From a virus: a stretch of DNA of 32,253 bases. The translations under genes were made by a program, and so were the position numbers. The notes under the pieces are model-generated. The model worked only from the letters and a program-made list of their open reading frames with translations, had not been told where the DNA came from and did no database searches. The number at the start of each line of letters is the position of its first letter. The stretch's first letter is position 1. Below are positions 11,353-16,662 of this stretch, piece after piece. Location of the stretch: the IMG/VR virus record IMGVR_UViG_3300017719_000088, positions 1 through 32,253 of that record; one strand, written 5' to 3'.

Positions 11353-11553
11353 CTATTTTTTAGCCCTTTGTGTAGTATAGCTCGATTTTTTAGATTGATC
11401 TTGAAATGCTTTTTTCATATGTTCTGGAAGAGGATCTCCCATGTTAGCAGAAGTAGAATTATCACCTGTTTGGGCATTATCCATAGCCTTTTTTTCTTCT
11501 TGCCTAAATTTAACTATTTTATTTACAGTAAACCGTCTTAACCAGATAGGCAT
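11353..11553 (-). CDS. Second tail assembly chaperone ORF (downstream part of a probable +1 frameshift product)
   Basis: The ATG-initiated form has 66 aa (MPIWLRRFTVNKIVKFRQEE...), but the same frame stays open upstream to a TGA at 11665-11667. The extra 37 codons read like real protein: QEYRVNLFTTLHDLVFHSGG then GYDYYTVYN directly before MPIWLRRF. Between the TGA and this ATG there is no ATG, GTG or TTG, only one CTG. The extended frame overlaps the 3' end of the gp26-like gene, in +1 relative to it, and lies immediately upstream of the tape measure gene. This is the arrangement of G/GT-type tail chaperones. A slip near GGG TTT CTT TGG would give a fusion of about 339 aa. Alternatively a 66-aa protein is made from the ATG. 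The C-terminal half is charged and Ser/Gln rich, probably flexible. Confidence 0.72.
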   Translation of the reverse strand: MPIWLRRFTVNKIVKFRQEEKKAMDNAQTGDNSTSANMGDPLPEHMKKAFQDQSKKSSYTTQRAKK

Positions 11554-11629
11554 ATTGTATACTGTATAGTAATCATATCCTCCACCACTGTGGAAAACTA
11601 AATCATGTAATGTAGTAAATAAATTTACT

Positions 11630-11664
11630 CTATATTCCTGAGTCAGGCCAAAGAAACCCGGCTG
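11630..11664 (-). other. Candidate +1 programmed frameshift window
   Basis: The end of the gp26-like gene reads, in codons, GCC GGG TTT CTT TGG CCT GAC TCA GGA ATA TAG. The +1 frame opens after TGA at 11665-11667, so a shift must take place in these 35 bases. TTT C allows tRNA-Phe to re-pair on TTC, and CTT T permits CTT to TTT re-pairing as in the RF2 (prfB) site CUU U. No stop codon sits directly in the A site there, so this would be a non-stop-driven slip. A -2 shift reaches the same frame and cannot be excluded. Confidence 0.5.
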
Positions 11665-15403: not shown

Positions 15404-15429
15404 AAAAAAATAAATAATCCAAATTATTT
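15404..15429 (-). terminator. Possible AT-only terminator after the S74 fibre gene
   Basis: Minus strand AAATAAT, loop TTGG, ATTATTT, then a T-rich tail of seven T. The 7-bp stem has no GC pairs and overlaps the fibre stop codon (15424-15426), so it is a weak candidate. Confidence 0.4.
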
Positions 15430-16662
15430 TGAATGTTTTGATTTAAGTTCGTCAATTTGTTTTTGTTGTTCTCTTATAGCTTCAATTAATAAGGGAACTA
15501 TTTTTTCATACCTTACTGCTTTATAACCGTTTTCTCTTGTTGTTACTACTTCAGGTAATATTTCTTCTATTTCTTGTGCTATTACTCCTACATCATGACC
15601 TTCAAACGAATGAACTTCTTTTTTCATCTTTTCATCTGTGGCTTTCCAGTCAAATTCAACACCTCTAATTTTATCTATTTTATCTAAGGCATTAGGAATA
15701 GGTTTAATATATTTTTTTAATCTAATATCAGAAGTAGAAAATGCTACTATATCGTTTGAAGCATCTATTCTACCATTTGTAGTGGAATTATTTATAGAAC
15801 CAATAGCGAGTGATCCATTAGATACTCTTAAATCATTGTTAGTACCCCCAGGTCCACCTCCAATTGAAATTGTCCCTGCTGGGGCTGTTAAATATAATAA
15901 GCTAGAGTATACAAATAAAGAATAGCTTGTAGTACCAATATTAATACCACCACTAAATACTGGTGAATTTGAAAATGTTTTAACTCCTGCAATTGATTGT
16001 ACTCCTGATGTTTGAACTAAAGAATTTAAATTAGAAGCTCCTGTTCCTCCTTTGGATACTGCTAAAGTACCTGAAAGGTCACCTAAACTTAAATCATTAT
16101 TAAATTCACTTAAATCTAAACTAGAAAGAGATGTAACTCCAGTTCCTCCATTTCCTTCAGGTAAAGTGCCTGTTACATTCGAAGTTAAACTAACAGATAT
16201 CGATTCTAATGACCATGTACTAGCATTACCTGCTACTCCTTCACTAGCATAATTAAATCTTAAAAATTTACCATTATCAGAAGAACCACCTGTAAGACTA
16301 GTAGCTGAAGATTGGGCAGAAGTTTGACCTCCTCTTACAATAATAGAATTAGTATTAACCGAAACTAAACTATCTAATTTTATTTTATCTGAAGATGACA
16401 TACTACCTGCTGCAGATGTTGTTGCTGCACTAATACTAATTGCAGGTGCTGTGCCTCCTGAGGATACTATAGGTGTAGTTCCTGTTACACCTGTTACTGT
16501 ACCTCCTCCACCACCTGAAAATGATGCTGTTAGCTTAATATTGTTATTTGAATCTAGGGTTAATACTTTAGTCCCTGTATTATCTTCTGTAAGACTTGTT
16601 AATTTTAATGTAGTAAGTTCTCCAGAACCCCCATTAAGTAAGATTTTTTTCCAGTTTGGCAT
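15424..16662 (-). CDS. Tail fibre with C-terminal S74 self-cleaving chaperone domain
   Basis: A 412-aa fibre whose C-terminal 105 residues (about 308-412) form an intramolecular chaperone of endosialidase type (peptidase S74). The domain starts FSTSDIRLKKYIKPIPNAL; the Ser-Asp-x-R-L-K signature marks the expected self-cleavage position just before Ser311. It continues through GHDVGVIAQEIEEILPEVV and YKAVRYEKIVPLLIEAIREQ to a coiled-coil end. In known members this domain trimerises the fibre and is then released. The N-terminus MPNWKKILLNGGSGEL matches the opening of three other fibres here (WKK-x3-x-GS), which suggests a common attachment site. The middle is Ser/Gly/Thr rich with SGTLAVSKGGTGASNL-type beta repeats. 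It follows the 63-aa gene with an 83-base leader containing a perfect recurrent element. Confidence 0.93.
   Translation of the reverse strand: MPNWKKILLNGGSGELTTLKLTSLTEDNTGTKVLTLDSNNNIKLTASFSGGGGGTVTGVTGTTPIVSSGGTAPAISISAATTSAAGSMSSSDKIKLDSLVSVNTNSIIVRGGQTSAQSSATSLTGGSSDNGKFLRFNYASEGVAGNASTWSLESISVSLTSNVTGTLPEGNGGTGVTSLSSLDLSEFNNDLSLGDLSGTLAVSKGGTGASNLNSLVQTSGVQSIAGVKTFSNSPVFSGGINIGTTSYSLFVYSSLLYLTAPAGTISIGGGPGGTNNDLRVSNGSLAIGSINNSTTNGRIDASNDIVAFSTSDIRLKKYIKPIPNALDKIDKIRGVEFDWKATDEKMKKEVHSFEGHDVGVIAQEIEEILPEVVTTRENGYKAVRYEKIVPLLIEAIREQQKQIDELKSKHSK

Follow-up and report, generated by a model that had tools for sequence, protein, structure and literature searches.

Frameshifting in tail assembly chaperone genes is classical and mostly of the −1 type (PMC5009743). 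In phage lambda, the G and GT proteins arise from overlapping ORFs located between the tail tube and tape measure genes; the second ORF has no start of its own, the two products have a common N domain, and the shift is −1 on a slippery heptamer (PMC5009743). Atkins et al. (2016) described G-T frameshifting as widely conserved in long-tailed phages 'except T4' (PMC5009743). Among myoviruses, the Vandenendeviridae and Andersonviridae make TAC-N and TAC-NC via a conserved poly-T site, by −1 on GTTTTT (PMC12846349), and the same paper cites Vladimirov et al. 2022 for poly-T −1 signals in the TAC-N genes of T4-like phages (PMC12846349). The +1 frame is reached by −2 slippage in a tail gene of the contractile-tail phage Mu (PMC5009743), and a +1 shift is predicted to join two ORFs between tail tube and tape measure in haloarchaeal myoviruses of the HF1 group, where the motif is TTT-CGC, and in HSTV-2 (PMC7230728, PMC5009743). 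The bacterial RF2 gene (prfB) shifts +1 from CUU_U to UUU, with UUU_U in a minority of RF2 genes (PMC5009743). T4 itself has separate and divergently oriented genes for gp26 and gp51, and separate genes of the 26/51 type are also found in 44RR, Aes508, DK-13 and others. Judging by its title, a study by Vladimirov, Gautam and Davidson (2022) reportedly assigned the tail chaperone genes of T4-like phages, with gp26 and gp51 as the T4-like TACs, and suggested a mechanism other than frameshifting. With that study considered by title only, we found no description in the literature of a conserved +1 site in a T4-type chaperone. To our knowledge, few bacterial examples of +1 frameshifting have been reported and no general motif has emerged from them.

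The window, by which we mean the whole stretch of DNA analyzed, is a 32,253-base IMG/VR virus record in which nearly all tail genes lie on the minus strand. Between the tail tube gene and a tape measure candidate it carries a putative chaperone pair (12373–11353). We read this pair as one tail assembly chaperone made in two lengths, the long form via a +1 frameshift, and on the strength of sequence comparison we give this reading a probability of roughly 92%. The initial annotation had proposed such a fusion of a gp26-like protein with a chaperone domain before the tape measure, and the proposal survived every comparison to which the sequences were subjected. The locus contains the following features:

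14999–13005, minus strand: tail sheath protein (phrog_23, E = 2.5e-66)
12959–12471, minus strand: tail tube protein (gp19-like), the gene upstream (phrog_4542, E = 3.4e-19)
12373–11630, minus strand: gp26-like zero-frame ORF, the putative short form (TAC-N), 247 aa, ending ...AGFLWPDSGI (phrog_150, E = 1.5e-10)
11664–11353, minus strand: start-less open +1 frame, 103 codons and a stop
11656–11648, minus strand: candidate frameshift site TTT CTT TGG, zero-frame Phe-Leu-Trp; YTT_TGG (or TAC) in 123 of 125 non-redundant relatives
11653–11650, minus strand: predicted slip tetranucleotide CTT_T; P-site CUU to UUU, A-site UGG (Trp) to GGC (Gly)
11649–11356, minus strand: +1 domain GLTQEYR...RAKK, 98 aa, the putative C-terminal domain of TAC-NC (codon-position pattern, weak phrog matches, model)
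11632–11630, minus strand: zero-frame stop TAG that ends the short form
11553–11551, minus strand: first ATG of the +1 frame (codon 38), within MPIWLR
11321–8787, minus strand: tape measure protein candidate, the next gene downstream, an 844-aa ORF at the tape-measure position

The coordinates bore out the basic observations of the initial annotation, namely a +1 frame that stays open for 37 codons before its first ATG, has no canonical start and overlaps the gp26-like gene. The overlap with the end of the gp26-like ORF is 32 nt, and its sequence GGG TTT CTT TGG CCT GAC includes the GGG TTT CTT TGG that had been pointed out. Before the ATG at 11553, the +1 frame is devoid of any ATG, GTG or TTG. 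When CTT_T is read as one step, the two frames join into a fusion of exactly 339 aa, as against the earlier estimate of about 339 aa, and in-frame CTTT occurs only once in the gp26-like gene. The added domain starts at GLTQEYR (11649), 32 codons ahead of the ATG; all 37 upstream codons are indeed open, but the first few precede the slip point and would not be translated in the +1 frame. In Immutovirus, the order of tube, pair and tape measure is identical and the counterpart of the tape measure candidate is annotated as tail tape measure protein. The position between tail tube and tape measure fits a tail assembly chaperone locus.

With lambda G/GT the locus shares its placement, the overlap, the start-less second ORF and the common N domain; it differs in that the shift would be +1 on YUU_UGG, and the proteins belong to the T4 gp26/gp51 family rather than to lambda G/T. 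Its N domain shares homology with gp26 and with the N-terminal portion of gp51, and the long form would likewise consist of an N domain and about 50–100 further residues, encoded here by a single gene with a frameshift whereas T4 uses two genes. The RF2 site CUU_UGA_C offers the same P-site slip tetranucleotide (CUU_U or UUU_U) and the same direction. The likeness to RF2 noted initially holds for this P-site element; it does not extend to the A site, which in the window family is the sense codon UGG (121/125) and not the stop UGA, nor to a Shine-Dalgarno-like stimulator, of which there is no conserved example here, and the product is an assembly protein rather than an autoregulatory one. The haloarchaeal loci are alike in layout and predicted shift and come from archaeal viruses, with TTT-CGC in place of YTT_TGG in the HF1 group. 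Vandenendeviridae and Andersonviridae share the TAC-N/TAC-NC output from a T-rich site in a myovirus and differ in direction, while Mu shares the +1 destination and differs in the route.

Scans with several gp26-type queries identified 185 loci holding the gene, 125 of them non-redundant at 95% over the junction, with divergence within the family down to 37% identity. The site and an open +1 frame past the gp26 stop are retained in 123 of the 125 non-redundant relatives, and this arrangement and its conservation exceed chance. The near-invariant site is [U/C]UU_UGG_CCU, represented by UUU_CUU_UGG in the window and by UUU_UUU_UGG in most relatives. TTT TTT TGG is found in 104 loci, TTC TTT TGG in 7, TTT CTT TGG in 6 (the window, its close kin and Flavobacterium phage immuto), CTT TTT TGG in 3 and TTT YTT TAC in 3, the remaining 2 sites being broken; these loci are kin, so the counts are not independent events, and the site types require 11 changes in total on the tree. 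Positions 2–3 of the slip codon and the fourth T are essentially invariant across the 125 relatives. The TTT CTT TGG part of the slip motif originally put forward is thereby upheld and its GGG, which is not conserved, is dropped, the conserved unit being YUU_UGG_CCU. The added +1 frame has a median length of 78 codons, and the −1 frame is closed after one codon in 101 of 125 loci.

The arrangement is present in two isolates, Flavobacterium phage immuto and phage Mel-JY01, and in a Flavobacteriales MAG contig. Public annotation misses the fusion: the second ORF of immuto is given as 36 aa from an internal ATG, and that of Mel-JY01 starts from a TTG before the site (L081:4839-4949, L082:4737-4973). 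Public records that cut the C domain short or assign it an arbitrary start can thus be corrected.

The invariant GGCCTGA at the site encodes W-P-D/E in the zero frame and G-L-T/N/S in the +1 frame, so its invariance is largely fixed by two-frame coding and needs no special reading. In many relatives, the zero-frame stops (TGA, TAG) at 11630–11645 and equivalent positions are by-products of the conserved +1 residues PEYR (CCTGAATATAG). Tryptophan accounts for 28 of the 30,249 upstream codons of these genes, compared with 121 of 125 codons at the site; as far as codon counts go, this enrichment fits a slow A-site codon, without proving it.

The +1 frame evolves as a protein well before its first ATG. 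Among 177 pairs of relatives, the stretch from the gp26 stop to MPIW has 244, 201 and 1214 differences at codon positions 1, 2 and 3, respectively, the third position thus exceeding either of the others about fivefold, as expected if, in the words of the initial annotation, the frame 'reads like protein' upstream of the ATG. Over the same stretch, 954 synonymous differences were counted versus 403 non-synonymous ones. Constraint is weaker past MPIW (1501 synonymous versus 1536 non-synonymous), indicating that the domain is better conserved ahead of its first ATG than behind it. The upstream codons and GGGTTTCTTTGG, whose conservation in related phages had been suggested as a check, are conserved at both the protein level and the base level.

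These patterns bear on whether the downstream ORF could instead be a separate gene, started from a canonical or near-cognate codon and overlapping gp26 only incidentally. Between the upstream +1 stop and MPIW, 34 of the 125 loci, the window included, contain no ATG, GTG or TTG, and in about 50 loci that stop lies just a few codons before the site. Nor is any start conserved: 18 of the 125 relatives have Leu or Phe in place of the MPIW ATG, and starting there would remove the most conserved part of the domain. In the predicted domain this ATG falls between helices 2 and 3, with the first two helices upstream of it, and it is probably not the gene start. An internal CTG start at the junction was rejected, as the codon is CTA, CTT or CTC in 30 of 125 loci. 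The absence of a Shine-Dalgarno sequence at the +1 ORF is no counter-evidence to a separate start, because the gp26 starts lack one too, being Shine-Dalgarno-like in only 4 of 125 loci; such starts are as expected for phages of Bacteroidota, the hosts that we infer from immuto and the Flavobacteriales contig. Support for a separate gene comes from two loci, L181 and L185, which carry an ATG-started C-domain gene and correspond to the relatives with their own ATG that the initial annotation had named as a possible refutation. Such relatives do exist, yet both have lost the slip site (TTC TTG TAT in L181, TTC CTT TGG CCA in L185). Their +1 frame is shut after about 10 codons, and the C domain begins from a new ATG 3–5 bases past the gp26 stop (L181, 2700–3100; L185, 2700–3000). 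In the N-domain tree, a quick tree with SH-aLRT support only, the two are sisters and join immuto, which has the frameshift arrangement, in a strongly supported clade of 62, all other members of which have it as well. Their nested position means that the split arrangement is derived and, together with the loss of the slip site, turns these separate ATGs into support for frameshifting. From their gene layout, the C domain can evidently be made as a separate polypeptide in L181 and L185. A separate gene across the family would also leave the base-level constraint on the T run and on the base preceding it without explanation, and we judge it very improbable. A sequencing indel or a decayed gene, for which nothing speaks beyond the split frame itself, has a negligible probability: more than 170 independently assembled loci show the same split frame, as do the sequenced isolates immuto and Mel-JY01, and this recurrence refutes the indel considered at the outset.

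The natural variants reveal the direction and the point of the shift. The second codon of the pair is the sole one able to slip in every variant, and +1 re-pairing on UUU is workable in all of them. At UUC_UUU_UGG, the site of a clade that forms one side of a supported branch in the N-domain tree, the first codon is unable to re-pair at +1, and −2 slippage would put the Phe-tRNA on UCU with a mismatch at the middle position; both −2 and a slip on the first codon are therefore excluded in this clade. Elsewhere, −2 slippage as in Mu would reach the same frame with one extra residue, and UUU_UUU_U does allow −2 re-pairing of the Phe-tRNA, but at the TTTCTTT sites the Leu-tRNA would come to lie on UUC. 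We consider −2 quite improbable for the family; from the earlier formulation '+1 (or −2)', +1 is kept and −2 falls away, for the UUC_UUU_UGG clade at the least and, on the simplest view, throughout. Slippage of RNA polymerase on the T run, leaving some mRNA with one U fewer, would be the other route to the +1 frame, and seven consecutive T are indeed present in 106 of 125 relatives. A run of seven T is short for transcriptional slippage. Moreover, a C interrupts the run in about 15% of relatives (TTTCTTT in the window and Immutovirus, TTCTTTT, and others), leaving 3–6 T (3 in the window), and the arrangement is unchanged. Selection appears to act against an eighth T, the opposite of what such slippage favours, and we regard this explanation as extremely improbable.

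Base composition around the run is consistent with a +1 shift on the second codon. The slip codon ends in T in 124 of 125 loci, compared with 80% TTT among the other Phe codons of the gene; since only the zero frame translates this third base, coding for the zero-frame protein does not account for its fixation. Codon use predicts a T before the run in 73 of the 125 loci, yet only 3 have one; all 3 belong to the UUC_UUU_UGG clade, whose site cannot give rise to the −1 heptamer U_UUU_UUU. None of the 106 loci with UUU_UUU has a preceding T, although in-frame TTT TTT at other places in these loci follows T more often than any other base (65/125). This avoidance of T suggests selection against −1 (backward) slippage, and we did not encounter an X_XXY_YYZ heptamer (U_UUU_UUN or the like) leading into the −1 frame. 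Immediately ahead of the run (11657 in the window), C or G is present in more than 90% of relatives, A being common before TTT elsewhere, and an effect of the E-site codon is possible. Of the 90-nt segments folded from 10 relatives, nine had z values from −1.8 to +0.8 and one had −2.6, with no stimulatory RNA structure recurring among them. The alignment of the 125 relatives contains no conserved upstream Shine-Dalgarno-like element or purine run, so neither kind of element would account for the efficiency of the presumed shift.

In the mechanism that we propose, most ribosomes would produce the gp26-like short form of 247 aa. Some would slip one base forward while the peptidyl-tRNA occupies the second member of the Phe-Phe/Leu codon pair (CUU in the window, UUU in most relatives) and the A site awaits Trp UGG, the tRNA re-pairing with UUU. 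Reading on in the +1 frame (GGC CUG ...) would then add the 98-aa helical domain and yield the 339-aa long form. By analogy with lambda G/GT, coating of the tape measure protein may fall to the short form and recruitment of tail tube subunits to the rare long form.

The N domain is linked to T4-type baseplate assembly proteins by several comparisons. All 55 aligned relatives match phrog_150 (baseplate hub), and the AlphaFold model of the N domain (pLDDT 91) has T4-type baseplate hub (assembly) proteins as its best Foldseek matches, with a TM score of about 0.8. A chain of homology leads from the window family to distant homologues (1e-72) and from these to T4 gp26 (7e-12); compared directly by profile, the whole N family matches T4 gp26/gp51 weakly (E about 0.01), so that the link runs through intermediates only, and PF12322 scores 22.3 bits on the window protein, under the cut-off of 24.5. 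Searches of the PDB by sequence and by fold gave no match to the N domain, and the 50–130 kb part of Synechococcus phage S-PM2 contains no recognisable homologue.

T4 gp51 comprises a gp26-like domain (PF12322 over residues 1–201) and an extra C-terminal part, to which hhalign matches the +1 domain weakly and in the right register (E 0.004, probability 3.5%). Among 55 members of the +1 domain, 15 match phrog_634 (T4 gp51), the best at 0.011 and below threshold; phrog_634 and phrog_32580 (tail assembly chaperone) are the two families matched by most members, in every case below threshold. The +1 domain matches the +1 domains of Thornevirus-like phages at 5e-10. It is modelled as three helices, with pLDDT 85–94 over the first 60 residues, and a fold search with the C domain returned no significant match. 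From the N-domain homology, these weak similarities and the position between tail tube and tape measure, we infer that the short and long forms would be TAC-N and TAC-NC, equivalent to T4 gp26 and gp51.

Tail chaperone frameshifting is a known class, and a +1 form fixed in the T4 gp26/gp51 family appears to be new to it. Whereas T4 has stood out among long-tailed phages as the acknowledged exception to chaperone frameshifting, a large and mostly uncultured set of aquatic phages very probably does express T4-type chaperones by frameshifting, in the forward direction. The family provides more than 100 natural variants of one +1 site, natural losses included, and counts immuto as a cultured member.

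More distant gp26 homologues also show changes of frame, which were read by eye in single genomes and serve as a lead only. Loci with overlapping +1 or −1 ORFs (L083–L088, L191 and L192) come from RM378, Streptococcus phage GXN1, Listeria phage LIS04, huge phages and Atu_ph07, and their slippery codons vary, UUU_CGU among them. At the same Phe-Phe point, +1 changes fall on TTT TTT TGG in RM378, TTC TTT CGT in GXN1, GAG TTT TTT AGT in LIS04 and TTT CTA TTC in LR756508, and −1 changes on TTTTTTC in Atu_ph07 and LR756511. Tentatively, and with more doubt than confidence, we suggest that the Phe-Phe end of the T4-type chaperone may be an old recoding point at which expression of the long form has changed repeatedly: by +1 on YUU_UGG (the window family and RM378), by +1 on UUU_CGU or UUU_U (Thornevirus-like phages), by −1 on U_UUU_UUC (Atu_ph07, LR756511), by split genes (L181, L185) and by duplication with a hard-wired fusion (T4 26/51). 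Under this suggestion, the T4 pair would derive from a frameshifted ancestor, of which the ...EFFELL end of gp26 would be a relic, and a single Trp codon would set the pace of frameshifting in the window family, making the chaperone ratio responsive to tryptophan supply.

Elsewhere in the window, 15424–16662 encodes a tail fibre-like protein whose C terminus (about residues 291–411) matches end domains from numerous families of long tail fibre and baseplate wedge proteins and is perhaps a self-cleaving chaperone domain. Additionally, a 241-aa protein encoded at 1878–2603, far from the tape measure gene, matches internal positions 923–1073 of a tape measure family of 1948 positions, perhaps through a shared enzyme domain.
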